DNA of 11,664 bases. Source: an uncultured Burkholderiales bacterium (GTDB taxonomy: Bacteria > Pseudomonadota > Gammaproteobacteria > Burkholderiales > Burkholderiaceae_C). Numbering within the stretch: position 1 is the first letter of the stretch; each line of letters starts with the position of its first letter. This document shows, in pieces, positions 1-11,553 of the stretch. Where the stretch lies: positions 1-11,664 of the forward strand of contig CAIYKK010000408.1 of assembly GCA_903926695.1 (NCBI GenBank), in the 5' to 3' direction. The notes beneath the pieces were generated by a model, which ran no database searches, was not told the DNA's origin, and saw only the letters and a list, made by a program, of their open reading frames with translations. Made by a program: the position numbers and the translations under genes.

Positions 1-1241
1 AGTCGGTCTTTGCCTTTTCCATCAAGTTCGCCAGCGGCAACCGCATCACGGCGCTCAGCTCCAAGCCGCGCAACCTGCGCGGCAAACAGGGCCGCGTGAT
101 TCTGGACGAGGCGGCATTCCACGAGGCTCAGGGCGAGATTCTGAAAGCGGCGATGGCCCTGTTGATCTGGGGCGGCGACCTGCGCATCATCAGCACGCAC
201 GACGGCGACGACAACCCGTTCAACCAGCTCATCAAGGACACGCGGGCCGGGCGCTTTCCGTACAGCGTCCACCGCTTTACCTTTGGCGAGGCGCTGGACG
301 AGGGCTTGTACGAGCGCATCTGCCTGCGCACGGGCGAAGCCTGGAGCGCCGAGGGACAAGCCGCCTGGGAGGCAAAAATCCGGGCCAACTACGGCGACGA
401 CGCCGAGGAGGAGCTGGACTGCGTGCCCAAGCACGGCAGCGGCGCTTTCCTGACCCGTGAGCTGGTCGAGGGCCAGATGCGGCGCGGCTGGCCGGTGCTG
501 CGCGACCAGCGCCCGCCCGCCTTCACGTTTGAGCCTGATGCGCGCCGAATCTCGACGATCCTGGGCTGGTGCGAGGACAACCTCAAGCCGCTGCTGGACG
601 CCTTGCCCAAGAATGAAATCAGCTTCCTGGGCGGCGACTTTGCGCGCACGGGCGACCTGAGCGCCTTTTTCCCCCTGCTGCAGCGCCAGAATCTGAGCCG
701 GTACTGCCCGTTCATCGTCGAGTTGCGCGGCATGCCGTTTCGTCAGCAACTGCAGGTGCTCTGGTACATCCTCGACCGGCTGCCGCGCTTTGTGGGTGCC
801 GGGCTGGACGGGCGCGGCCTGGGCTCGCAAATGGCCGAAGAAACGGCGCAGAAATACGGCCCCACGCGCATCCTGTGCGTGATGGCCACGCAGCCCTGGT
901 ATCTGGAGCACCTGCCGCCCTACAAGGCCGCGTTTGAAGACCGGCTCATCGAGCTGCCGATGGACGCCGACGTGCTGGCCGACCACCGGGTGCCTAGAGT
1001 CATCAAGGGCATCCCGCAGATTCCAGAGCTGCGCACCCAGGACGCGCAAAAGAAAAAGCGCCACGGCGACACCTTCATTGCCGGTTCGCTGGCCTGGTTT
1101 GCCAGCCGCACGCTGGCGGGCACCAACGACTATGGCTACGAGGCCGGGCCATCGAATCTCAGCCGCTGGGATGCGCCCGCCAATGACCGCGACAGCGACC
1201 ACGACCGCGATCTGGGCAGCTCCCAGCGCGGTGCCTGGTAA
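1..1241 (+). CDS. gp28: Mu-like terminase large subunit (gp28 type), 5' partial
   Basis: This is the ATPase/nuclease motor that docks on the portal, packages DNA and cuts it at headful. The frame is open to the left edge (first full codon at position 3), so the gene starts upstream; the GTG at 96 lies inside a conserved motif and is not the start. About 412 residues are visible, and Mu gp28 has roughly 550. Numbering visible residues from position 3, the Walker B element RVILDEAAF is near residues 31-39. The STHDGDDNPF coupling motif follows about 25 residues later. The RNase H-like nuclease shows GGDFARTGD (nt about 633-659), GAGLDGRGLG (about 798-827) and a late HGDTFIAG acidic motif (about 1062-1085). 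The Walker A lysine must lie off-window. The C-terminus is a charged D/R-rich tail. The portal gene follows after 27 nt, the standard Mu order. Confidence 0.93.
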   Translation, partial: SVFAFSIKFASGNRITALSSKPRNLRGKQGRVILDEAAFHEAQGEILKAAMALLIWGGDLRIISTHDGDDNPFNQLIKDTRAGRFPYSVHRFTFGEALDEGLYERICLRTGEAWSAEGQAAWEAKIRANYGDDAEEELDCVPKHGSGAFLTRELVEGQMRRGWPVLRDQRPPAFTFEPDARRISTILGWCEDNLKPLLDALPKNEISFLGGDFARTGDLSAFFPLLQRQNLSRYCPFIVELRGMPFRQQLQVLWYILDRLPRFVGAGLDGRGLGSQMAEETAQKYGPTRILCVMATQPWYLEHLPPYKAAFEDRLIELPMDADVLADHRVPRVIKGIPQIPELRTQDAQKKKRHGDTFIAGSLAWFASRTLAGTNDYGYEAGPSNLSRWDAPANDRDSDHDRDLGSSQRGAW

Positions 1242-1268: not shown

Positions 1269-2888
1269 ATGGCCATCCTTGACCAATTCGGCAACCCGAT
1301 TGAAAGCGCCCGCCTCGAAGAACCCCAGACGGCGCGCCTGGCGCAGCTGCGCCACGAGTTCGACAACCACCCCAGCCGTGGCCTGACGCCGCCGCGCCTG
1401 GCCAACATCCTGCAGAGTGCCGAACAGGGCGACCTGACGGCGCAGCACGAGCTGTTTATGGACATGGAGGAAAAAGACGGCCACCTGTTCAGCGAGCTGC
1501 AAAAGCGCCGCATGGCCGTGCAGCAGCTCGACTGGACTATCGTTCCGCCGAAGAACGCGACGGCGGCGGAAAAGGCCGATGCCGAGTTTGTCTGCGAGAC
1601 GCTGGAGGCGATGGAGGACTTTGGCGACGTGCTGTTTGATATGACGGACGCCATCGGCCACGGCTTTGCGCCGCTGGAAATGAGCTGGGGCCGGGTGGAC
1701 GGCTGGGATGTGCCCGTCAAGATTGAGCACCGGCCTCAAAGCTGGTTCAAGCTGGCCATGAACCCGGACATCAGCCGCAACGAGCTGCGCCTGCGCGACA
1801 ACACCGCCGACGGCGAGCGGCTGTGGGCCTTCGGCTGGCTCATGCACCAGCATCGGGCGCGCAGCGGCTATATCTCGCGCTCGGGCCTGTTTCGGGTGCT
1901 GACCTGGCCGTTTTTGTTTAAAAACTATGCGGTGCGCGACCTGGCTGAGTTTCTGGAAATCTACGGCCTGCCGCTGCGCCTGGGCACCTACAACGCCAGC
2001 GCCACCAAAGAAGACAAGGCCACGTTGCTGCGCGCCGTGGTGGGCATTGGACACGACGCGGCGGCCATCATCCCGCAGGGCATGGCCATCGAGTTCATGG
2101 ACGCGGCCAAGGGCGACAACAAATCGTTCGACGCGATGATTGCCCTGATGGAGCGGACGATGTCCAAAGCCATCCTGGGCGGCACGCTGACCAGCGGCGA
2201 GGGCACGCACGGCAGCCAGGCGCTGGGCAATGTCCACAACGAGGTGCGCAAGGACTTGCGCAATTCGGACGCCAAGCAGCTGGCCGCCACGCTGACCCGC
2301 CAGTTGATTTACCCGATTTTGGCGCTGAACAAAGGGCTGACCGATCCGCGCCGCTGCCCGCGCTTTGTGTTTGATACCCAGGAGCCGGAAGACATCAAGC
2401 TCTACAGCGAGGCCGTGCCCAAGCTCGTGGGCATGGGTATGCGCATCAAGCGCGACTGGGCGCATGACAAGCTCAAGATTCCGCTGGCCGGGCCAGATGA
2501 CGAGGTGCTGCAGCTGGCGCGCCCCGAGCTGACCGTGCCGCCCGAAGACCGCCCGGCCAATCCGCGCGCGTCCACCGGCGCGCCGCCCAGCGCCAAGCTC
2601 AAGGCCCAGCTGCCAGCCACAGCCGGTACTGATGCCGGTGAAGGCGACGAGCTGGACGACCTGAGCGCCGAGATGCTCAGCGATTGGGAGGAGGTGCTGG
2701 GCCAGACCCTGCAACCCATCCAGGCCGCGCTGGACAGCGCCAGCAGCCTGCCCGAATTCCGCGATGCGCTCGAAGGCGCATTAAGCCAGGTTGACCCGGC
2801 CCAGCTGGTCGAAATGCTGGCGCGTGGCCAGTTTGCGGCGCGCGCGTGGGGTCAGCTCAGTCAAGTCAAAAAAAGGATTGAGATATGA
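1269..2888 (+). CDS. gp29: Mu-like portal protein (gp29 type, DUF935)
   Basis: This is the portal, the ring at the unique capsid vertex through which DNA enters and leaves. The 539-aa product is close to Mu gp29 (about 510 aa). It has the DUF935 character: an N-terminal stretch with ILDQFGNPI, a helical segment with LFSELQKRRMAVQQLDW, then YGLPLRLGTY, and ILGGTLTSGEGTHGSQALG, which is typical of this family. The C-terminal 130 residues are Pro/Ala/Asp-rich, including APPSAKLKAQLPATAG, and then helical. The ATG at 1269 is preceded by only a weak purine run (AAGAAAGA, 1256-1263). The stop overlaps the next gene in an ATGA (2885-2888). In Mu the next gene is F; here four fibre-cassette genes intervene. 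The family call is firm; the ring role is family knowledge. Confidence 0.93.
   Translation: MAILDQFGNPIESARLEEPQTARLAQLRHEFDNHPSRGLTPPRLANILQSAEQGDLTAQHELFMDMEEKDGHLFSELQKRRMAVQQLDWTIVPPKNATAAEKADAEFVCETLEAMEDFGDVLFDMTDAIGHGFAPLEMSWGRVDGWDVPVKIEHRPQSWFKLAMNPDISRNELRLRDNTADGERLWAFGWLMHQHRARSGYISRSGLFRVLTWPFLFKNYAVRDLAEFLEIYGLPLRLGTYNASATKEDKATLLRAVVGIGHDAAAIIPQGMAIEFMDAAKGDNKSFDAMIALMERTMSKAILGGTLTSGEGTHGSQALGNVHNEVRKDLRNSDAKQLAATLTRQLIYPILALNKGLTDPRRCPRFVFDTQEPEDIKLYSEAVPKLVGMGMRIKRDWAHDKLKIPLAGPDDEVLQLARPELTVPPEDRPANPRASTGAPPSAKLKAQLPATAGTDAGEGDELDDLSAEMLSDWEEVLGQTLQPIQAALDSASSLPEFRDALEGALSQVDPAQLVEMLARGQFAARAWGQLSQVKKRIEI
2874..2877 (+). promoter_or_regulatory. Ribosome binding site for first cassette gene
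   Basis: AGGA lies 7 nt before the ATG at 2885, after a run of seven A residues, inside the last codons of the portal gene. It supports ATG 2885 as a real start and coupling through the ATGA overlap. Confidence 0.6.
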
Positions 2889-3259
2889 GTATTTGGTCTA
2901 TTTTTCGCTCGGGCGTCAAAAGCCCTGTTGATGGCGTTTTGTTAATCAATCCAGCCACCGGCGAGCCTGTGATGCCCGTGGCTATTGCAGCATCTGCACA
3001 AGATAACGCCGCCGTGGCTGTAGGCGACACAGCGACCGCACTGCTGGAGGCTAATCCCAGCAATATCGGCCTGCGCTTACTTAATATTGGCACCGACCCT
3101 GCGGCCATCGGCCAGGCAGGCATCACATGGACAAAGCGGGTGATCGTGCTAGACCCCGGCAGCTTGTGGATTGAAACTGAAGCGCCAAATCTCGCGTGGT
3201 TTGCCGTTTGCGATGCAGGACAAAGCGCATCTATTACGTCTCAAGAGCTGCGTAAATGA
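2885..3259 (+). CDS. Small phage structural protein of unknown function (124 aa)
   Basis: I do not recognise a named family. The product has no predicted membrane segment or signal peptide. The central part (residues about 48-80) reads like the small beta-rich structural domains found near phage tail and fibre genes: ATALLEANPSNIGLRLLNIG, then DPAAIGQAGITW, and a later LDPGSLWIETEAPN segment. That pattern (array of short strands, then Asn-Ile-Gly, then a proline/glycine turn and an acidic EAP) is what I base the structural call on. The gene overlaps the portal stop by four bases, has AGGA upstream, and overlaps the next ORF by ATGA. It heads the fibre block, so a fibre-attachment, baseplate or virion-decoration role is plausible, but this is inference from position. 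Confidence 0.75.
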   Translation: MSIWSIFRSGVKSPVDGVLLINPATGEPVMPVAIAASAQDNAAVAVGDTATALLEANPSNIGLRLLNIGTDPAAIGQAGITWTKRVIVLDPGSLWIETEAPNLAWFAVCDAGQSASITSQELRK

Positions 3260-3486
3260 GCAGCATGATCAAAAAATCCATGTATGCGCCTGTCAGCATC
3301 GACCAGGCTACCGTACTGGCCGCTGCTGCCCTTGATGCAACACAGAAAATAACCGCTTCTCAAAAAACACTTGCCAGCTATGCCATTGATGTGCATGGCT
3401 TGGCAGTTGATGACCTACTGCTGTTTAATGGTTCGGCATGGGTTAATTCTGGTAAATCAACCATTTCAGACGGAGGTAATTTCTAA
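3256..3486 (+). CDS. Small fibre-associated protein of unknown function (76 aa)
   Basis: This is a short ORF between two genes to which it is directly coupled (ATGA at the start, TAATG at the end), which argues that it is translated. ATG 3265 is an alternative start (MIKKSMYAPV). The N-terminal half contains an Ala/Thr-rich helical segment (DQATVLAAAALDATQKI, about residues 16-32). The C-terminal half contains DDLLLFNGSAWVNSG. The NGSAWVN core recurs in phage tail-fibre and tail-tip proteins, usually in repeats of the form 'xLxYNGSAWVN'. It ends in ISDGGNF, resembling the DGGTF end of the following fibre protein. It may be a fibre adaptor or a remnant of a longer fibre gene. No enzyme motif is seen. 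Confidence 0.65.
   Translation: MSSMIKKSMYAPVSIDQATVLAAAALDATQKITASQKTLASYAIDVHGLAVDDLLLFNGSAWVNSGKSTISDGGNF
3472..3477 (+). promoter_or_regulatory. Strong Shine-Dalgarno for first fibre gene
   Basis: GGAGGT lies 8 nt before ATG 3486, within the last codons of the 76-aa ORF. It is the best ribosome site in the cassette and fixes the start of the 362-aa protein. Confidence 0.8.
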
Positions 3487-4574
3487 TGACCAATACAATT
3501 CGCATCAAACGTCGCGCCAGCGGCGCGGCAGGCGCACCATCGACTCTCGCAAATGCAGAGTTGGCGTACAACGAAGTTGACGACACGCTGTATTACGGCA
3601 AAGGCACGGGTGGCGCAGGCGGTTCCGCCACCACCGCTGTGCCAATTGCCGGTAGCGGCGCGTACGTCGGCCTCACTGGCAACCAAACTATCGCTGGAAC
3701 GAAGACATTCAGCTCACCGATCACGGCGAGCGTGGCGGGTAACGCCAGCACTGCGACCGCGCTGGCCACCGCGCGCACTCTCAGTTACACGGGTGACGCC
3801 ACTGGTTCCGCCACCTTTGATGGAACTGCTAACACAGCTACCACACTGACCCTGGGTACCACTGGGGTTACCGCTGGCACATACGCCAGCGTGACCGTTA
3901 ACGCCAAGGGGCAGGTCACTGCCGGCACCAACCCGACAACTCTGGCTGGGCACGGTATCACCGATGCCGTCAATGTGTCGACATTGGGCGCAGTAAACGG
4001 TGTGGCTACGCTGGGTTCGGACGGGAAAGTCCCTGCTGGTCAGCTGCCAAGCTTCGTTGATGACGTGTTGGAATTTGCCGCGCTGGCAAACTTCCCCGCC
4101 ACTGGCGAATCCAGCAAAATCTACACTGCGCTGGACACGAACAAAATCTACCGTTGGAGCGGTTCGGTTTACATCGAGATCAGTTCTACTGCCGGTAACG
4201 CTGATAGCGCCACTAAACTCGCTACTCCTCGCACGATTACCGCGACAGGCGATGCAACTTGGTCTGTGTCGTTTGATGGTTCGGCCAATGCTTCGGCTGC
4301 GCTGACGTTGGCGGCGAGCGGCGTTACGGCTGGAACGTATGGCTCGGCCACTACGGTGCCTGTGCCAGTCGTCAACAGCAAGGGATTGATCACAGCCATC
4401 ACTACCCAAGCCATCGCATTCCCTGTCACCTCGGTGGCAAATCGCACAGGCGCAATTACGCTGGCCGCTGGGGATATTTCTGGCCTGGGCACGATGGCTG
4501 TGCAAAATGCCGCCGTAGTCGCAATCACGGGCGGCACGATTGACGGTGTTGTGTTTGACGGCGGGACTTTCTAA
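3486..4574 (+). CDS. Tail-fibre-like protein 1 (362 aa)
   Basis: This is a likely virion fibre or fibre-base protein. Residues 5-40 (IRIKRRASGAAGAPSTLANAELAYNEVDDTLYYGKG) form the short N-terminal attachment-type module seen on many phage fibres, here split by quotation: IRIKRRASGAAGAPST, then ELAYNEVDDTLYYGKG. Residues 65-79 hold GNQTIAGTKTFSSPI, a common fibre motif. Two related repeats follow, at about 82-148 and 233-306, each with GNA..AT.LAT.RT, then TGDAT, FDG.AN and SGVTAGTY-like segments. Between them, residues 188-233 carry PSFVDDVLEFAALANFPATG and NKIYRWSGSVYIEIS, another widespread fibre module. The end, AITGGTIDGVVFDGGTF, looks like a fibre terminus. The composition is Gly/Ala/Thr/Ser-rich throughout, as expected for trimeric beta-structured fibres. 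A strong SD (3472-3477) and TAATG coupling fix the start. The receptor is unknown. Confidence 0.88.
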   Translation: MTNTIRIKRRASGAAGAPSTLANAELAYNEVDDTLYYGKGTGGAGGSATTAVPIAGSGAYVGLTGNQTIAGTKTFSSPITASVAGNASTATALATARTLSYTGDATGSATFDGTANTATTLTLGTTGVTAGTYASVTVNAKGQVTAGTNPTTLAGHGITDAVNVSTLGAVNGVATLGSDGKVPAGQLPSFVDDVLEFAALANFPATGESSKIYTALDTNKIYRWSGSVYIEISSTAGNADSATKLATPRTITATGDATWSVSFDGSANASAALTLAASGVTAGTYGSATTVPVPVVNSKGLITAITTQAIAFPVTSVANRTGAITLAAGDISGLGTMAVQNAAVVAITGGTIDGVVFDGGTF

Positions 4575-4576
4575 TC

Positions 4577-6568
4577 ATGAGCGCCACAGTAAAAATGAAA
4601 CGGTCTGCTGTGGCGCTCTCAGCGCCAACAGTGGGACAACTGGCCCTGGGCGAACTTGCTATTAACACTACTGACGGCAAGCTTTTTCTCAAAAAAAGCG
4701 TCAATGGCGTTGAAAGCATCGTTGATGTAACTAAATCTCCCGATGCGCCATACACTATAAATTCTCTGAGTGTGACGGCGACGCGTCCGCCATTTACGAT
4801 AGCAAATCAATTTAACCTATTAGATGTCGCTGATGGTACCGACGGTCTGACTGGTTTTCAGGGCTGGCACAAAGTGATGGAGCTTGGCACAAGTGGCATG
4901 CGTCATCAGATTGCTTTTACCGATGACCGAATCCTTCGGTATCGTGCCAGCGGCGGAACACAGAATTGGACAAGCTGGAGTCAGATATGGGACTCCAGTA
5001 GCTTAACAAATCTGAGTCAGCTCACGAATGGTCCCGGCTATACCACTAATCTAGGTACCGTAACTGCCGTTGCTGGAACTGGCGCTATCAATTCTACTGG
5101 CGGAACTACGCCAGTAATCTCCATCGCTGCCGCTACGACGGCGCTTCCTGGAACTATGTCCAGTTCAGACAAAACCAAGCTGGATGCAATCACCGGCAGT
5201 AATACTGGCGACCAGGCCAATATCACTGGTAACGCAGGTACCGCTACCAAACTCGCTACCGCTAGAAATATCAACGGCGTACCTTTTGACGGTAGTGCTA
5301 ATATCAGCCTACCGGCAATTACATTCGTATCTAATGCATATTCGATAATGCCATTCGATTATAGCGCAACCGTAGCGTCCCCGTTTGGTGTACCGTATGC
5401 AGGTTACTACGGAACAACTTACACATACACTACTAGCAACACATCCTCTGGATTATCTGATGGTGGTACGGGTATTAGCGTGCTGCATGTTAATACGTCT
5501 TATGTTCAATCAAGTCATCATTCGCACGAACTCGGGTTTACCGACAACGATAACCTATGGATTCGTGGCAGCGCTAGTGATACTACGTGGGGCGCGTGGA
5601 CGCAAATATGGGACACGAGTAGCTTAACCAATTTGAACCAGCTCACCAATGGTCCTGGTTACACGACTAACTTGGGTACCGTAACTTCTGTTACTGGTAC
5701 TGGGGCCATAAGCGCCACCGCGGGCGCCGCTCCAGTAATTTCTATTGCTGCTGCGTCCGTAACCGTTCCAGGAACGATGTCTGCGGCTGATAAGGTGAAG
5801 ATCAACGCCGTCAGCGGGACCAATACCGGTGATGAAACCGCGGCCACCATCAAAACGAAGCTGGGCATTACCACGCTATCTGGTTCGAATACCGGGGATC
5901 AAACCAGTGTTAGTGGTAATGCCGGATCGGCTACCTCGCTAGAAACCGCGAGAGCCATTAACGGAGTGTCGTTTGACGGTACTGCTGACATCACGATTAG
6001 CGCAGTAGACTCGACTGCGCGCCAAGCCACCTCAGGAAAAGATACCAGTGGCGGATACACTGGTTTAACACTATTGAAGATAAACTTCAAGAATGTGTTA
6101 AACACATTTACGTCGTTTTGCACCAACTCCAACACCGCCGCCAGAACTTATACATTTCCCGACAAAAGCGGCACAATAGCCACGACCTCCGGGGACTCGA
6201 TCAGCGTAGTAGATCACGCCGTCACAGGCATGCTGCTTGTCAGTACGGTGGTGGCAGCGCAGAACGCTACGGTGGCGTTGCCAGTTACCTCTATCTCTGG
6301 CGGTATCATCACCACTGCGCCCGCTGCAGCCATCATCCTGACCGTGCCTACCGGCACGGCAATGTGCGCGGAAATGGGAGCGCTGTCTATCGTCGGTCAA
6401 GGGATTAGCTGGTCGATCATCAACACGTCAGCCAGCTTTGGAGCTACGCTGGCTGTGGGCACGTCGCACACCCTGGTGGGCGATAAAGTGATCGCCCCAG
6501 GTGTGTCTGCGCGGTTCACGACCGTGGAGTCGGGCGTCAATACCTGCGTCACCTATCGTATCGCTTGA
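4577..6568 (+). CDS. Tail-fibre-like protein 2 with duplicated knob unit (663 aa)
   Basis: This is the larger fibre of the pair and the likelier receptor-binding subunit. The N-terminus (VKMKRSAVALSAPTVGQLAL, then GELAINTTDGKLFLKK, residues 5-40) is the same kind of attachment module as in the preceding fibre. Residues about 57-140 and 248-347 form two knob-like units, each ending in a W..W.QIWD[ST]SSL motif (W131/W134/W138 and W338/W341/W345), reminiscent of the knob domains of R-pyocin and phage fibres. Each is followed by LTN[LN].QLTNGPGYTTNLGTVT, PGTMS..DK and TNTGD segments, then a GNAG.AT.L.TAR.INGV.FDG unit (215-247 and 444-476). Residues 518-536 hold SNTAARTYTFPDKSGTIA, common in fibre shafts. 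The last 110 residues are a beta-rich terminus (SWSIINTSASFGATLAVG, ending CVTYRIA). GGGA (4563-4566) is a modest ribosome site. The start lies 2 nt after the previous stop. Confidence 0.88.
   Translation: MSATVKMKRSAVALSAPTVGQLALGELAINTTDGKLFLKKSVNGVESIVDVTKSPDAPYTINSLSVTATRPPFTIANQFNLLDVADGTDGLTGFQGWHKVMELGTSGMRHQIAFTDDRILRYRASGGTQNWTSWSQIWDSSSLTNLSQLTNGPGYTTNLGTVTAVAGTGAINSTGGTTPVISIAAATTALPGTMSSSDKTKLDAITGSNTGDQANITGNAGTATKLATARNINGVPFDGSANISLPAITFVSNAYSIMPFDYSATVASPFGVPYAGYYGTTYTYTTSNTSSGLSDGGTGISVLHVNTSYVQSSHHSHELGFTDNDNLWIRGSASDTTWGAWTQIWDTSSLTNLNQLTNGPGYTTNLGTVTSVTGTGAISATAGAAPVISIAAASVTVPGTMSAADKVKINAVSGTNTGDETAATIKTKLGITTLSGSNTGDQTSVSGNAGSATSLETARAINGVSFDGTADITISAVDSTARQATSGKDTSGGYTGLTLLKINFKNVLNTFTSFCTNSNTAARTYTFPDKSGTIATTSGDSISVVDHAVTGMLLVSTVVAAQNATVALPVTSISGGIITTAPAAAIILTVPTGTAMCAEMGALSIVGQGISWSIINTSASFGATLAVGTSHTLVGDKVIAPGVSARFTTVESGVNTCVTYRIA
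4967..5209 (+). repeat. Intragenic fibre repeat, copy 1
   Basis: This codes residues 131-211 of the 663-aa fibre. It aligns without gaps with 5588-5830 at a constant offset of 621 nt (207 codons). For example, ATATGGG is at 4985 and 5606, and GGTACCGTAACT is at 5054 and 5675. Many third positions differ, so the duplication is old or the copies were recruited separately. Confidence 0.85.
5588..5830 (+). repeat. Intragenic fibre repeat, copy 2
   Basis: This codes residues 338-418, the partner of 4967-5209. After residue 420 this copy gains about 22 residues (TAATIKTKLGITTLSGSNTG) that copy 1 lacks, before the shared GNAG...INGV.FDG unit resumes at an offset of 229 residues. Confidence 0.85.
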
Positions 6569-6570
6569 CC

Positions 6571-6606
6571 ATGCTCAAAATTTCAGGCGTTTTGGGGCAT
6601 TTTTTT
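6571..6606 (+). terminator. Candidate intrinsic terminator after fibre 2
   Basis: ATGCTCAAAA (6571-6580) can pair with TTTTGGGGCAT (6590-6600), with one G bulge and one G-T pair, around a 9-nt loop. Seven T residues follow directly (6600-6606). It begins 2 nt past the fibre stop. The stem is A/T-rich on the loop side, so its strength is uncertain. It would lower expression of everything from F onward unless there is read-through or antitermination. Confidence 0.5.
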
Positions 6607-6720
6607 GACCTGCGGCCACAGACCCCCCGGATTTTTCTGAGCGGGGCCGCTAAACGGGTCTTAAACGCCTTGGTTTGCGAGTCTGCAAGCCATGCTCAAC
6701 TGCATTTACGCAATGGCTAA
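6571..6720 (+). CDS. Possible 49-aa ORF linking fibre 2 to F
   Basis: An ATG starts 2 nt after the fibre stop (TGACCATG). The frame stays open for 49 codons (MLKISGVLGHFFDLRPQTPR...), ending with TAA at 6718-6720. It overlaps the internal F start ATG 6713 in ATGGCTAA. This geometry would couple fibre 2 to F by translation. Against it, there is no Shine-Dalgarno, no recognised family, and the ORF runs through the terminator-like hairpin. It may be a chance frame or the relic left by cassette insertion. Confidence 0.25.
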   Translation: MLKISGVLGHFFDLRPQTPRIFLSGAAKRVLNALVCESASHAQLHLRNG

Positions 6721-7495
6721 AAAGTTTGACCTAAAGCCGCTGCTCAAGGCCGTCAACCCGGAGGAGGCCATTGCCTTTTTTCGCCAGAAAGGCTTTCGCA
6801 TCGGATTCGACTACCGCGACGTGTGGCAGCAGGAGCATCAAGCCGGTTTCACGGTCGCAAAAGCCATGCAGCTCGACCTGCTGGCTGAGATTCGCGGCTT
6901 TGTCGATGCGGCCATCGCTACGGGCACCACGCTGGCGACGTTCCAGAAAGAGCTGATGCCGCGCCTGGTCAAGCGCGGCTGGTGGGGCAAGAAGGAAATG
7001 GCCGACCCGCTTACCGGTGAAACCAAGCTGGTGCAGCTGGGCAGCCCCAGGCGGCTCGAAACCATTTATGACACGAACCTGGCCACGGCGTACAGCGAAG
7101 GCCAGTGGGAGCGCATCCAGCGCAACAAGGCGCTGTTTCCATTTTTGGAATATGTGCGCAGCGCGTCGGTCAATCCGCGCCACACGCACCTGGCCTATGC
7201 CGGTCTGGTGCTGCCCGCCGATGCCCCATTCTGGCAAATCCACATGCCGATTAAACAGTGGAAGTGCAAATGCTCGGTGATTCAGCACACGGGTCGCATG
7301 CTGGAGCGCGAAGGCCTCAAGGTGGGCACCGCGCCGCCCGAGGTGATGCGCGAGATGCTCAATAAACGCACCGGCGAGATCATGCAGGTGCCCACGGGCG
7401 TCGATCCGGCCTTTCACTACCCGCCGGGCGGGCGCAGACAGAACCTCGAAAAAATGCTCCAGGACAAGGCCGACGCCTTCAAGTCGGGCAAATAA
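6692..7495 (+). CDS. F: Mu protein F-like minor head protein (gp30 type)
   Basis: This is a minor capsid/head morphogenesis protein acting at the portal vertex during procapsid assembly (Phage_Mu_F family). From ATG 6692 it is 267 aa; ATG 6713 (MAKKFDLKPLL, 260 aa) is the alternative and reads more like a natural start. Neither has a clear ribosome site. The N-terminal half is helical (NPEEAIAFFRQKGF, then AMQLDLLAEIRGFVDAAI). The core is ETIYDTNLATAYSEGQWERI (about residues 121-140), then a RHTHLAYAGLVLPADAPFW segment and the Cys motif KQWKCKCSV, characteristic of the family. It is clearly shorter than Mu F (about 425 aa), lacking the C-terminal region. It follows a non-coding gap rather than overlapping the portal gene as expected in Mu-like gene order. 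Confidence 0.9.
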   Translation: MLNCIYAMAKKFDLKPLLKAVNPEEAIAFFRQKGFRIGFDYRDVWQQEHQAGFTVAKAMQLDLLAEIRGFVDAAIATGTTLATFQKELMPRLVKRGWWGKKEMADPLTGETKLVQLGSPRRLETIYDTNLATAYSEGQWERIQRNKALFPFLEYVRSASVNPRHTHLAYAGLVLPADAPFWQIHMPIKQWKCKCSVIQHTGRMLEREGLKVGTAPPEVMREMLNKRTGEIMQVPTGVDPAFHYPPGGRRQNLEKMLQDKADAFKSGK

Positions 7496-7534: not shown

Positions 7535-7599
7535 CTTCCCCCAATGACCTAACCAGCTTTAATAGCCTCAGAGGCGCCATTGCAAGAGCATTGGGCCTC

Positions 7600-8676
7600 A
7601 TGACGATCAAAGCAAACCCCCGCAAATTTGGCAATATCGCCGCGCTGACATTCCAGGTCAGCGCTGGCGCGGGCGTAGAAGCCCAGCTGCTGCCCGCTGG
7701 CGAGTTCCGCCCCATCGACGGGCGGCCTACACCGTGGGGCGCGTGGAAGCTCGACGAGTCCAATGCGCCCGCTGTGGTGGCGCGGGCAAACCAGCGCATC
7801 AACGAATTCGTCATCGACTACGAACACCAGACCCAGCTCGCCGACATCAACGGCCAGCCCGCGCCCGCTGCAGGCTGGTTCAAAACGGTCGAGTTCCGAC
7901 CCGGAAAAGGGCTGTGGGCCATCGACGTGCGCTGGACGGCGCGCGCCAAACAGTTCATTGAGGCAGAGGAATACAAATACCTCAGCGCCGTGTTTGCGTT
8001 TGACGAGCACACGGGTGAAGTCCTCAAGCTGCTGTGCGCAGCACTGACCAATAACCCCGGACTGCACGGCATGGATGCCGTCCAGCTCGCCGCCCTCACC
8101 ACACGCTTTTCTATGGCCGACATCGACCCGGCCCCCGTTCAGGTCGATAACCCGGAGAAATCAATGAATCCAGTTTTGAAGGCGCTGCTGGCAGCGCTCG
8201 GACTGCCCGAAACCGACGCGACGACTGCCGAGCAAGCCGTCGCCGCCGTGGAGGCGCTCAAAGCCAATGCCACAGCGATGTGCAAAGAAAACGCCACGCT
8301 CAAAAGCGCGGGCAACCCTGACCCGAGCAAATGGGTCTCCCTGGACAAGTTCACCGAACTGAGCACCCAGGTCGCCCAGCTCACGGCCAGCCACGGCGAG
8401 GGCGAAATCGACAAGCTGCTCACCGATGCCCGCGCCCAGGGCAAATGCTCTGCGGTGGTTGAAAGCGTCTGGCGCGACGTGGGCCGCAAAGACATTGCCC
8501 AGCTCAAGGCGCTGATCGACAAAACGCCCGGTAACCCGGCGCTGGCGGGCAAAACCCAGACCGATGGCCGCCAGCCGCCCGCGACTGACCCCAACGCCGC
8601 GCCCGGCGACCAGGAGCTGGCGATGTGCAAAGTGATGGGCATGACCATCGAGCAGTTCTGCGCTGGCGCGGCCTGA
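7600..8676 (+). CDS. I: Mu protein I-like head maturation protease with C-terminal scaffold
   Basis: This is the prohead protease that processes scaffold and capsid proteins during head maturation (Mu-like prophage I protein family). At 358 aa it is close to Mu I (about 361). ATG 7600 is preferred over the in-frame TTG at 7591; neither has a good ribosome site. The protease part (residues 1 to about 175) carries RINEFVIDYEHQTQLADING (68-85 region, with H76), AAGWFKTVEFRPGKGLWA and YKYLSAVFAFDEHTGEVLKL. It then has the LTNNPGL segment (149-155) typical of the family. The last 170 residues are the scaffold, also made separately from an internal start. The ending MCKVMGMTIEQFCAG is a short helix of the type that binds capsid in such scaffolds. 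Catalytic residues are not assigned here. Confidence 0.92.
   Translation: MTIKANPRKFGNIAALTFQVSAGAGVEAQLLPAGEFRPIDGRPTPWGAWKLDESNAPAVVARANQRINEFVIDYEHQTQLADINGQPAPAAGWFKTVEFRPGKGLWAIDVRWTARAKQFIEAEEYKYLSAVFAFDEHTGEVLKLLCAALTNNPGLHGMDAVQLAALTTRFSMADIDPAPVQVDNPEKSMNPVLKALLAALGLPETDATTAEQAVAAVEALKANATAMCKENATLKSAGNPDPSKWVSLDKFTELSTQVAQLTASHGEGEIDKLLTDARAQGKCSAVVESVWRDVGRKDIAQLKALIDKTPGNPALAGKTQTDGRQPPATDPNAAPGDQELAMCKVMGMTIEQFCAGAA
8154..8157 (+). promoter_or_regulatory. Internal ribosome site for scaffold Z
   Basis: GGAG followed by AAA stands 6 nt before an in-frame ATG at 8164, inside gene I. It is better than any site in front of gene I itself and supports independent translation of the scaffold. 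Confidence 0.75.
8164..8676 (+). CDS. Z: Nested scaffold protein Z (in frame within I)
   Basis: In Mu the scaffold Z is made from an internal start of gene I and shares its C-terminus. The same layout is seen here: ATG 8164 (codon 189 of I) preceded by GGAGAAA, giving a 170-aa protein starting MNPVLKALLAALGLPETDAT. The sequence is helical and Ala/Lys/Glu-rich (TAEQAVAAVEALKANATAMC), as expected of a scaffold coiled coil, with a disordered Pro/Asp/Gln stretch (DGRQPPATDPNAAPGD) before the C-terminal helix. It would fill the procapsid interior and be degraded by the protease. Expression from this start is inferred from the ribosome site and the Mu precedent. Confidence 0.8.
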   Translation: MNPVLKALLAALGLPETDATTAEQAVAAVEALKANATAMCKENATLKSAGNPDPSKWVSLDKFTELSTQVAQLTASHGEGEIDKLLTDARAQGKCSAVVESVWRDVGRKDIAQLKALIDKTPGNPALAGKTQTDGRQPPATDPNAAPGDQELAMCKVMGMTIEQFCAGAA

Positions 8677-8707: not shown

Positions 8708-9121
8708 ATGACAGCGATTGCAATGGAGCGCGACACCCAGCGCCGCGAAGGCAAACAGGCCGCTTACCCCGTGCTGGCGGCCACCAAGGTGCTGGCCGGT
8801 ACGCTGGTCGTGCTGACGGCTGCAGGCTACGCCCAGGGCGGCGCGGTGGCCACAACTCTGAAAGCCGTGGGCATGGCCGAAGAAACTGCCGACAACACGG
8901 GCGGTGCCAGCGGTGACATCAAAGTCAAGGTGCGCCGCGACGGCTGGTTTCGTTTTGCCAACAGCGCGGCGGGCGACCTGATCACCATCGCCGACATCGG
9001 CAACAACTGCTACATCCTGGACAACCAGACCGTCGCCAAGATCGATGGCTCCACCACCCGCAGCGTGGCGGGCAAGGTGCGCGATGTGGATGCCACTGGC
9101 ATCTGGATTGAATTCATCTAA
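8708..9121 (+). CDS. Capsid decoration/cement-type protein
   Basis: This 137-aa protein lies between protease/scaffold and major capsid, the place of Mu gp33 and of decoration proteins generally. The sequence is beta-rich and small: KQAAYPVLAATKVLAGTLVVL near residues 16-38, GMAEETADNTGGASGDIKVK (about 58-77) and RDGWFRFANSAAGDLITIAD (about 79-98), ending IWIEFI. The pattern 'ample start-up loop, then a fixed GMA/AEE turn, then a DG-W-F strand' matches capsid cement proteins of Mu-like prophages as I know them. AGGA (8695-8698) sits 9 nt before the ATG. It probably binds the outside of the shell made by T. The family is assigned mostly from context and fold-like pattern. Confidence 0.75.
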   Translation: MTAIAMERDTQRREGKQAAYPVLAATKVLAGTLVVLTAAGYAQGGAVATTLKAVGMAEETADNTGGASGDIKVKVRRDGWFRFANSAAGDLITIADIGNNCYILDNQTVAKIDGSTTRSVAGKVRDVDATGIWIEFI

Positions 9122-9142: not shown

Positions 9143-10036
9143 ATGATCATCAATCCAAGCAGCCTGGCGCTGCTTAAACAAGCCTTCAACGCCGCATTCA
9201 AGGGCGCATTCGGCTCGGTCAACCCACTGTGGGACAAGATCGCCATGCGGGTGCCGTCGAGCACCGGCGAAGAGGTCTATGGCTGGCTGGGCGCGAACAC
9301 AAAGTTCCGCGAATGGGTAGGCGAACGCGTTTACCAAAACCTGAAGACGCACGGCTACACGATCAAAAACAAGACTTTTGAATCGACCGTGGCGGTGCCG
9401 CGTGAATCCATCGAAGACGACCAGTACGGCATGTACGCGACGCTGATGGCGCAGATGGGCCAGGATGCCAAGCTGCACCCCGACGAGCTGCTGTTCGGCC
9501 TGATCGCCCTGGGCGTCTCGACCACTTGCTACGACGGCCAGTATTTCTTTGACACCGACCACCCGGTCGGCGCGCAGGGCGCGGAAGTCAGCGTGAGCAA
9601 CTACACCAGCGCGGGCGGCAACAACCCCTGGTATCTGCTCGACACCAGCAAGATTCTCAAGCCGTTCATCCTGCAAATGCGCCGCGACTATGCGTTTATC
9701 GCAAAGACCAATCTCGCTGACGAGAACGTGTTTCAGAAAAACGAATTCGTTTTTGGCTCCGATGGCCGCCTGAATGTGGGTTTTGGACTGTGGCAGCAGG
9801 CTTACTGCAGCAAGGCATCCCTGGACTCGGCAGGCTACGGTGCCGCCCGCGTGGCCATGATGGCTTTCAAAAGCGACGCGGGTAAACCGCTGGGCATCAT
9901 GCCCAACCTGCTGTTGGTCGGCCCGAGCAATGAGGCGGCAGCGCTCAATGTCGTGACCGCCGAACGGCTGGCCAATGGTGCCACCAATATCTACCGCAAC
10001 AGCGCCACGGTGGTGACGTGCCCCTGGCTGCCTTAA
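9143..10036 (+). CDS. T: Mu-like major capsid protein T (gp34 type)
   Basis: This is the shell-forming head subunit. Its 297 aa are very near Mu gpT (about 305). Family hallmarks are visible: MIINPSSLALLKQAFNAAFKGA at the N-terminus (split: MIINPSSLALLKQ, FNAAFKGAFG), PLWDKIAMRVPSSTGEEVYGWLG (ending near residue 50), FREWVGERVYQNL, the TVAVPRESIEDDQYGMY segment near 88-104, and the DGQYFFDTDHPVG motif (about 132-144). No ribosome site stands out before ATG 9143, only an A-rich stretch. The stop at 10034-10036 precedes the gp35-type start by 38 nt. The call is firm from several motifs plus position. Confidence 0.95.
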   Translation: MIINPSSLALLKQAFNAAFKGAFGSVNPLWDKIAMRVPSSTGEEVYGWLGANTKFREWVGERVYQNLKTHGYTIKNKTFESTVAVPRESIEDDQYGMYATLMAQMGQDAKLHPDELLFGLIALGVSTTCYDGQYFFDTDHPVGAQGAEVSVSNYTSAGGNNPWYLLDTSKILKPFILQMRRDYAFIAKTNLADENVFQKNEFVFGSDGRLNVGFGLWQQAYCSKASLDSAGYGAARVAMMAFKSDAGKPLGIMPNLLLVGPSNEAAALNVVTAERLANGATNIYRNSATVVTCPWLP

Positions 10037-10061
10037 GCGCCGCCCCGACTGATCAACTCCT

Positions 10062-10065
10062 GGAG
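10062..10065 (+). promoter_or_regulatory. Ribosome site fixing the gp35-like start
   Basis: GGAG (then AA) lies 9 nt before ATG 10075. An in-frame GTG at 10018 would overlap the capsid gene and lacks such a site, so 10075 is taken as the start. Confidence 0.7.
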
Positions 10066-10074
10066 AACTCCCAA

Positions 10075-10347
10075 ATGGCAACGAGCGACAAAAAAGCAAC
10101 CGATGCAAAACCCGATGCGCAGCCGCAGGCCCAAAGCGCCGCTGAACTGGGCCTGAAAGTCACGGCGCGCCCGCCCAGCTTTCGCCGGGGCGGCTACACC
10201 TTCACCGGCGAGGCCAAGACGATCCCGCTGCGCGACCTCTCGCCCGAGCAGGTTTCGGCGATTGAAAACGATCCCAACCTGGTGTGCCACCGGGTCGCCA
10301 TCACCCCGCCCGAAAAAGCACCTGAAGCCGCACCCGAGGCGGCATAA
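10075..10347 (+). CDS. Mu gp35/FluMu N-terminal-domain-like small protein
   Basis: This is a 90-aa protein in the position of Mu gp35. The first 25 residues are Lys/Ala/Pro/Gln-rich and probably disordered. The core SFRRGGYTFTGEAKTIPLRD (about 35-54), continuing to LSPEQVSAIENDPNLV, matches the FluMu N-terminal domain type: an R-R-G-aromatic strand, then a short helix and a D-P-N-L end. The C-terminus is a Pro/Glu/Ala tail. The role is unknown; the family lies between the major capsid gene and the head-completion genes in Mu-like phages, so a minor virion or head-completion part is likely. The GGAG at 10062 fixes the start. Confidence 0.82.
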   Translation: MATSDKKATDAKPDAQPQAQSAAELGLKVTARPPSFRRGGYTFTGEAKTIPLRDLSPEQVSAIENDPNLVCHRVAITPPEKAPEAAPEAA

Positions 10348-10450: not shown

Positions 10451-10957
10451 ATGACCTACGCCACTCCCACCGACCTCCTGATCCGTTTTGACGCCTCGGA
10501 AATCGCCCAGCGCGTTGACCGGGGCGTGCCGCGCCTGATCACGTCCCAGCTCATGCAGGATGCCACCGCTGGTGCCAGCCTGGCCGCTTACCCGCTTGAG
10601 GCCGCCGGGCGCGCCCAGGCCGCAATGGTGGTGCTGCAGCGTGCTTTGCAGGATGCCGACGACACGATCAACGGCTACCTGAGCGCCCGCTACACCATGC
10701 CGCTGTCGCCGGTGCCCGCCGTACTGGGCCGTGTGGCTTGCGAGTTGGCGCGCTACTATTTATATGACGATCAGGTGACCGACCCGATCAAGGACAGGTA
10801 CGCTGCCAACATCAAATGGCTGGGCGAGGTGTCCAGAGGCACCGTCAGCCTGGGCACTGACGCGGCCAGCGGCGCGGAGCCGGTCAGCAGCGCCGGGGCC
10901 GAGCTGGTGACCAGCGCCCCGGTCTGGAAGCGCGAAAACAGCCGGGGCTTTATATGA
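10451..10957 (+). CDS. gp36: DUF1320 protein (Mu gp36 type)
   Basis: This 168-aa protein is of the DUF1320 family, thought to act at the head-tail connector. It starts MTYATPTDLLIRFDASEIAQ, the usual helical opening. Residues 58-107 carry the family core: ALQDADDTINGYLSARYTMP, then LSPVPAVLGRVACELARYYL ending YDD. The last 40 residues are Ala/Ser/Gly/Val-rich low-complexity sequence that ends KRENSRGFI, a common end for this family. No clear ribosome site precedes ATG 10451; AAAG at 10437-10440 is weak. The stop is shared with the next start (ATGA, 10954-10957). Connector function is inferred from position. Confidence 0.92.
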   Translation: MTYATPTDLLIRFDASEIAQRVDRGVPRLITSQLMQDATAGASLAAYPLEAAGRAQAAMVVLQRALQDADDTINGYLSARYTMPLSPVPAVLGRVACELARYYLYDDQVTDPIKDRYAANIKWLGEVSRGTVSLGTDAASGAEPVSSAGAELVTSAPVWKRENSRGFI

Positions 10958-11553
10958 CCGGCGTGATGATCGAGGCGCATGCCGATGGCCTGGAGGCGCT
11001 GGCCGGTGCGCTGATCCGCATGCACGCGCTGGGGCAAAACCCCAGCTCGATCTGGCACGCCATCGGCCAATACGGCGAGAGCAGCACACGGCTGCGCTTT
11101 GCCCGCCAAGTCGGCCCGGACGGCCAGCGGTGGAAAGCCAGCAAGCGCGCCCTGAAGACGGGCGGGCAGACGCTGCGGCTCAAAGGCCACCTGCTGGGCA
11201 GCATCAGTTACCGCGCCAACCAGAGCGGCGCTGAGTGGGGCACCAACAAGGTCTATGGCGCTATTCACCAGTTCGGCGGCACGATCAACAAGCTGGCTTT
11301 TTCGTCCACGCTGCGCCTGCGCACCGGCAAGGGCGGCGCGCTGCTGCGGCAAAAAGACCATCCCAATCTGGCAGTGTTTGCCAAAAAGTCGCACAAGCAG
11401 GCCGTGCAGCGCCGCTACACCGTGGGGGCGCACGCCATCACCATGCCAGCGCGGCCCTTCCTGGGCGTGAATGCCGAGGATGGCCGCGAAATGCTCAGGC
11501 TGGCCGAAGCCGCCGTTGACCTCGCCGCCCACAACCGTGGAGGAAATCCGTAA
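10954..11553 (+). CDS. G: Phage virion morphogenesis protein (Mu G / P2 S-like)
   Basis: This 199-aa protein belongs to the phage virion morphogenesis family (Mu gpG, P2 tail-completion S). Visible marks are IWHAIGQYGESSTRLRF (33-49), DGQRWKASKRALKTGGQTLR (56-75), LKGHLLGSISYRANQSGAEW (77-95, a 'LxxSIxY' signature), TNKVYGAIHQFGGTI (97-111, with the H-Q-F-G-G core), and AITMPARPFLGVN at about 161-173. All are typical in order and spacing. It should help complete the tail or neck joint. ATG 10954 overlaps the gp36 stop; ATG 10966 (MIEAHADGL) is an alternative. In Mu G lies between F and I; here it follows gp36. The stop is shared with the gp37 start (TAATG). Confidence 0.9.
   Translation: MTGVMIEAHADGLEALAGALIRMHALGQNPSSIWHAIGQYGESSTRLRFARQVGPDGQRWKASKRALKTGGQTLRLKGHLLGSISYRANQSGAEWGTNKVYGAIHQFGGTINKLAFSSTLRLRTGKGGALLRQKDHPNLAVFAKKSHKQAVQRRYTVGAHAITMPARPFLGVNAEDGREMLRLAEAAVDLAAHNRGGNP
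11539..11543 (+). promoter_or_regulatory. Strong Shine-Dalgarno for gp37
   Basis: GGAGG (then AAA) lies 9 nt before ATG 11553, inside the end of the G-like gene. Confidence 0.8.

Follow-up and report, generated by a model that had tools for sequence, protein, structure and literature searches.

The window analysed here is the whole of contig C408 (11,664 bases), part of the metagenome bin G000, which consists of 751 contigs and is 86% complete with 4.5% contamination. It carries a head module of the phage Mu type, with terminase, portal, F, protease, major head protein gpT and a gp36-type adaptor following one another in that order. The order is broken at one place only, the interval 2885-6568 between the portal gene and F, where four co-oriented genes are found that code for proteins of 124, 76, 362 and 663 amino acids (aa). 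These four genes are referred to as the cassette, and their products as o124, o76, fib362 and fib663 (Table 1). An earlier note on this DNA had described four genes at this position, two of them clear fibre genes, in a module otherwise keeping the Mu head order apart from gene G; open reading frame (ORF) and family searches bear this out, G being located after gp36 and the two fibre genes being those for fib362 and fib663, both of which match tail-fibre families of PHROGs.

Starting from the portal gene, successive ORFs overlap by 4, 4 and 1 bases, and fib362 and fib663 are parted by a 2-base gap, an operon-like arrangement in which the portal end and the o124 start share the letters ATGA. Because the ORFs overlap the portal gene and one another, translation of the cassette probably proceeds from the late head transcript, in which case it would be co-expressed with the head genes. 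A promoter search within the cassette gave 1 consensus match against 2.7 in shuffled sequences, and none was convincing. The best family match of fib362 is phrog_3018 (1e-49), followed by the tail fibre family phrog_7389 (1e-36), while fib663 matches phrog_6722 (3e-20) and phrog_1833 (3e-18), both tail fibre, and is predicted to be a receptor-binding protein. Neither o124 nor o76 has a significant family match (for o124, none in Pfam or PHROGs at E<=0.01), and no fibre-assembly family was matched by any of the four cassette genes in Pfam or PHROGs. The composition of the cassette is foreign to the module: the G+C content at third codon positions (GC3) is 0.84 in the portal gene, 0.43-0.62 in the cassette genes and 0.79 in F, with a range of 0.72-0.86 for the window's non-cassette genes and a value of 0.57 for the spacer in front of F. 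Contig C362, which also bears an integrase-like ORF, encodes a 1225-aa protein whose end shows 47% identity to the last ~100 residues of fib663, and this resemblance is a sign of module exchange among the prophages of the genome.

Table 1. Features of the window and the basis on which each was placed
Feature	Position	Strand	Basis or remark
Terminase	3-1241		ORF and family searches; start cut off by contig edge
Mu-type portal	1269..2888	+	PF06074 5e-106, phrog_113 4.9e-184; left neighbour of the cassette
Cassette interval lacking homology to the empty L003 and L006	2870..6561		blastn breakpoints
o124, gene 1	2885-3259	+	N-terminal 35 residues common to L007 gene 1 and P0003
o76, gene 2	3256-3486	+	small protein, C-terminus SDGGNF
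fib362, gene 3	3486-4574	+	IRIKRR N-terminus, Dec-spike-like repeats, C-terminus FDGGTF
fib663, gene 4	4577-6568	+	larger fibre, N-terminus KMKRS...GELAIN
Spacer between cassette and F	6565..6711	+	alignment with relatives
F, minor head protein	6692-7495	+	PF04233 1e-13, phrog_220; right neighbour of the cassette
Protease/I	7591-8676		ORF and family searches
Virion protein	8708-9121		ORF and family searches
Major head gpT	9143-10036		ORF and family searches
o109	10018-10347		small gene directly after gpT
Adaptor, gp36 type	10451-10957		ORF and family searches
G-type neck protein	10954-11553		ORF and family searches

The nearest relatives of the window are six viral contigs, L002 to L007, with portal proteins 89-91% identical to its own. 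The portals of L002, L003 and L004 are identical and that of L005 differs from L003 by 1 mismatch in 1596 bases, so these four represent one lineage, with L006 and L007 as two more. In blastn alignments of L003 and L006, homology to the window stops at 2869/2872 and restarts at 6562, and the two contigs carry 9 and 6 bases, respectively, instead of the ~3.7 kb cassette. The L007 junction measures 1,662 bp and holds two other genes, o160 and o328; the contig of L005 stops before F and is uninformative on the junction. The earlier note had reasoned that the layout would be ancestral to the lineage if most close relatives shared it. They do not: the L002/L003/L004 lineage and L006 have empty junctions, and L007 has a different cassette. 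Across a wider survey of 74 loci with portal and F on one strand, amounting to 67 distinct portals with the window excluded, 55 junctions are <=300 bp, 11 are of 300-950 bp and one, that of L007, exceeds 1 kb. ORFs in the gaps of 15 loci, among them all 300-950 bp junctions except that of L073, included no fibre; they were small and unrelated, or reflected a portal frame that is broken. When the four cassette proteins were searched against the other junctions with tblastn, the only match was o124 in L007; a match in L063 was set aside, as it lies inside the F gene in another reading frame. A search for fib663 in the records of L002-L007 found none, but was run without a positive control, so that its empty result shows nothing. 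For comparison, the portal and F genes of phage JBD30 overlap by one base.

Homology broken at both ends, deviant GC3 and the rarity of long junctions together indicate that the cassette layout is more than chance. A chimera of the metagenome assembly might be suspected given that the source genome is a fragmented metagenome bin, but we give this hardly any credence: ORFs overlap across the left edge, the reading frames are intact, and the o124 and fib362 protein clusters are each reported on 12 contigs, of which the longest (19,902 bases) is the same one for both. Insertion by a mobile element left no recognizable trace, the longest direct repeat between the edges being 6 bp, with no target duplication seen and no transposase-like ORF in the cassette.

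The window and L007 cassettes have in common only the start of gene 1. Between o124 and L007 gene 1, 32 of 74 residues are identical (E 3e-14), mostly within the first 35. One further database protein, P0003, encoded on a 1.6-kb contig, has this N-terminus together with the remaining part of L007 gene 1; by eye, the other 19 matches listed with their sequence share only the later domain. Searches of viral contigs with o124 gave 128 pattern stretches, among which no relative was confirmed, and with its N-terminus alone only L007 was found. A model built from the three N-terminus proteins and run against 399 genomes of the order recovered only the window genome. In the L007 cassette, o328 weakly resembles families of tail and host-range/adsorption proteins (best 1.3e-5). 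On the left side of the slot the window, L003 and L007 are about equidistant (terminase 93-94%, portal 89-91%); on its right side, F, dec, cap, gp36 and gpG place the window nearer to L007 than to L003, with the protease as the exception. Even distances on the left and an L007-skewed right side make recombination near the slot likely.

The remaining three cassette genes are of much wider distribution. Relatives of fib362 numbered 5,241 with E<=0.001 among 7,981 candidates scored, and its closest database protein (P0024) is up to 83% identical. Matches to fib362 were found in 3 of 299 genomes of the family, two of them partial. The best 80 of 516 confirmed fib362 loci in IMG/VR were surveyed for neighbouring genes; 71 of them match its N-terminus, 57 being distinct. 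An upstream ORF ending in GGN[FY] is present at 49 of these 57 loci, against a background of 1 in 2,959 other ORFs, and a downstream ORF with a K[RK][ST]...GELAIN start at 35 of the 52 loci having enough downstream sequence. The recurrent array therefore consists of a small DGGNF protein, an IRIKRR fibre ending in DGGTF and a KxKRS...GELAIN fibre, an order reproduced in the window by the SDGGNF end of o76, the IRIKRR start and DGGTF end of fib362, and the GELAIN start of fib663. What differs is the gene in front: where the usual array has a protein of 107-219 aa, the window has o124, which by eye is unlike the 16 examples compared, and a Mu portal takes the place of the large tail protein. Because three of the four window genes fit, we regard the cassette as a variant of the array.

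The surroundings of the array bear on where its products are mounted. Among the same 80 loci, it stands downstream of a tail protein of ~1000 aa or longer in 27 and in a head module in 5, the other 48 being unclassified. The cassette could accordingly be a second set of tail fibres, attached to the tail or baseplate, and its placement at the portal-F junction would then be incidental. The large tail protein of one such locus, L146, matches phrog_5616 (tail, 8e-14) and is read as a tail-tip protein, the family matches of fib663 are tail-fibre families, and in Pseudomonas phage Sirocco a fib362-like stretch lies inside a tail fibre gene. This is a serious alternative, though we hold it to be the less probable one, since o124 with its slot-shared N-terminus replaces the array's usual 107-219 aa protein, and the array follows a portal in other phages too, although the position of a gene says little either way. 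The five head-module loci (L179, L181, L185, L187 and L188) belong to a lineage unrelated to the window. In L185 and L187 the full order of portal (phrog_12, 9e-58), array, head maturation protease and virion structural protein was seen. This lineage thus also has an array adjacent to the portal, but its head genes are unrelated to those of the window and its fourth gene codes for only 73-74 aa, with no large fibre, whereas the window has fib663.

The best PHROG of fib362, phrog_3018, is labelled 'head decoration protein', and homologues in PaV-LD and S-CBS2 are annotated likewise, which would suit a Dec-like set that decorates the capsid for stability and not for adhesion. Among solved structures, fib362 has a single significant match, the C-terminal spike of Dec from phage L (6e3c_C, residues 88-134, 4.5e-7), the repeat of which aligns at two places in fib362. 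According to the portion of the Dec report available, the capsid-binding part of that protein is its N-terminal OB-fold, residues about 10-77 (PMC6449081), and sequence search detected no such N-terminal capsid-binding OB-fold in fib362. Since the match is limited to the spike, the label of phrog_3018 is no evidence for the head. A 663-aa fibre partner would, moreover, be unexpected for a cement protein, and a capsid-stabilizing role is very unlikely on these grounds. Two facts point to the head or neck: the array follows a portal gene in two lineages that are unrelated, and the first gene is specific to the slot. The commoner large-tail-protein neighbour points to the tail. If the cassette is an acquired adhesion module, we lean slightly towards placing its proteins on the head, portal or neck, with slightly less than even confidence.

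On contig C718 of the same bin, gp47- and gp48-type baseplate genes are followed by an S-like fibre gene (phrog_2617, 1.6e-18) and a U-like assembly gene (phrog_188, 1.5e-31), with GC3 of 0.62 and 0.56, so that the S/U-type and cassette genes are alike in low GC3. The presence of this S/U-type pair makes the cassette probably a second adhesion set. The alternative is that the cassette is the sole fibre locus, moved forward, and that the S/U genes of C718 come from a different prophage of the bin, as its fragmentation and contamination, and a variant of the window end on contig C450, might suggest. We consider this improbable: gp36 (on C408), sheath (on C450) and gp47 (on C718) were each matched once in the bin, C718 matches the cassette bearer L007 in its downstream part at 92% identity, and the L003 phage has a gene of >600 aa (L090 2-1855, minus strand, no PHROG match) in the usual tail-fibre position. 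The sheath on C450 indicates a contractile phage type. The second and exchangeable fibre set proposed by the earlier note is thus favoured both by the relatives' junctions and by the S/U-type genes, with the qualification that C408 and C718 are separate contigs. The note's further suggestions, a location on head or neck and a fibre dosage tied to the packaging genes, are more conjectural. A DNA-adenine-methylase-like gene, recognized by eye, lies after the S/U-type genes on C718 (L094 2-772, minus strand).

Taken together, we interpret the cassette as a horizontally acquired, exchangeable adhesion module occupying a preferred slot at the portal-F junction, additional to the S/U tail fibres, with a probability of roughly 0.6 as judged from sequence comparison. 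A ready-made array, corresponding to genes 2-4 and widespread in unrelated phages, would have been captured at the slot, and the short N-terminus of gene 1, common to different cassettes there, probably anchors that foreign array to the virion; o124 is in this sense a candidate docking or adaptor protein, and the cassette proteins would be virion components. Several observations weigh against this interpretation. Of the 80 array loci, 27 have a large tail protein as neighbour and only 5 a portal. Detectable relatives of o124 are confined to L007 gene 1 and P0003, and its structure prediction from a three-sequence alignment had a mean pLDDT of 42, was unusable and was not used. The use of the slot in the window and L007 may also reflect descent and not repeated insertion. 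Finally, no link joins C408 to C718, and the window end is overlapped by C450 (L089) with 93% identity over 474 bp; this overlap means that the bin mixes at least two prophage variants, and the linkage of C408 with C718 is therefore likely but unproven.

A more far-reaching version of the acquired-module interpretation, which we regard as speculative and rather unlikely, is that the portal-F junction serves these Mu-like phages as a docking slot where adhesion cassettes borne on head or neck can be interchanged. The first protein of each cassette would have a constant 35-residue N-terminal plug and a variable rest that carries the fibre array captured in that case. The plug would then fit the portal, neck or capsid and provide a contractile phage with a second host recognition away from the baseplate, and the unrelated lineage whose array follows the portal would count as an independent instance. 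If gene 1 were such a constant plug, it would offer a simple testable rule for mounting foreign fibres on a virion, with a defined empty site available for comparison.

The spacer following the slot has ~130 bp that are conserved both in L007 and in the relatives with an empty junction. Its short ORF varies in length and 3' frame, and an Rfam scan of the window, spacer included, gave no match; the spacer is possibly a regulatory or translational element. The true start of F is probably the ATG at 6713, which is conserved across the aligned relatives, F having 267 aa in the window, 260 aa in L003 and 276 aa in L007. The small gene o109 is the most divergent of the block, with 88% identity to L007 and 51% to L003, and by position alone corresponds to the minor capsid protein gp39 of JBD30. 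It was set aside as a docking partner, as three phages cannot separate this role from common descent. On a Nitrosomonas contig (L049 10546-12912) a head-protein-like ORF leads directly into an ORF of fibre type and a methylase-like gene; the apparent fibre after a head gene in L049/L011 (26% identity) was read as a deletion or misassembly.

Fibre genes are usually sought at the end of the tail module. A second fibre set in the head operon would be missed or misread by predictors of host range. A fibre cassette at the portal-F junction of a Mu-like phage was not encountered in the literature searched, from which only parts of the publications were at hand, and this does not prove its absence. 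Mu S/U fibres, as seen on C718 and in the gene order of JBD30, a Mu-like siphophage (Casadabanvirus) whose virion structure is solved according to the part of the report consulted (PMC11445458), come after the baseplate genes. The cassette instead follows the portal, lacks a gp47/gp48 neighbour and any gene matching a fibre-assembly family, and has no gene found in common with them. Mu-like phages of Pseudomonas aeruginosa carry accessory ORFs, mainly of 34-100 codons, in regions of plasticity that include the head module (PMC4378225). As in the window, these are accessory genes between core genes that are missing from near relatives; they differ in being small ORFs, with no fibre set described in the sections of that paper at hand (PMC4378225). 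Functional models for adhesion fibres away from the tail come from other phages. The flagellotropic phage 7-7-1 has capsid fibres that bind flagella, formed by a protein not known to its authors in the available part of their account (PMC12796354). Together with the head fibres of phi29 (PMC7602432, likewise available in part), they offer models of non-tail adhesion fibres that work beside tail attachment parts, as the cassette may do beside the S/U fibres.

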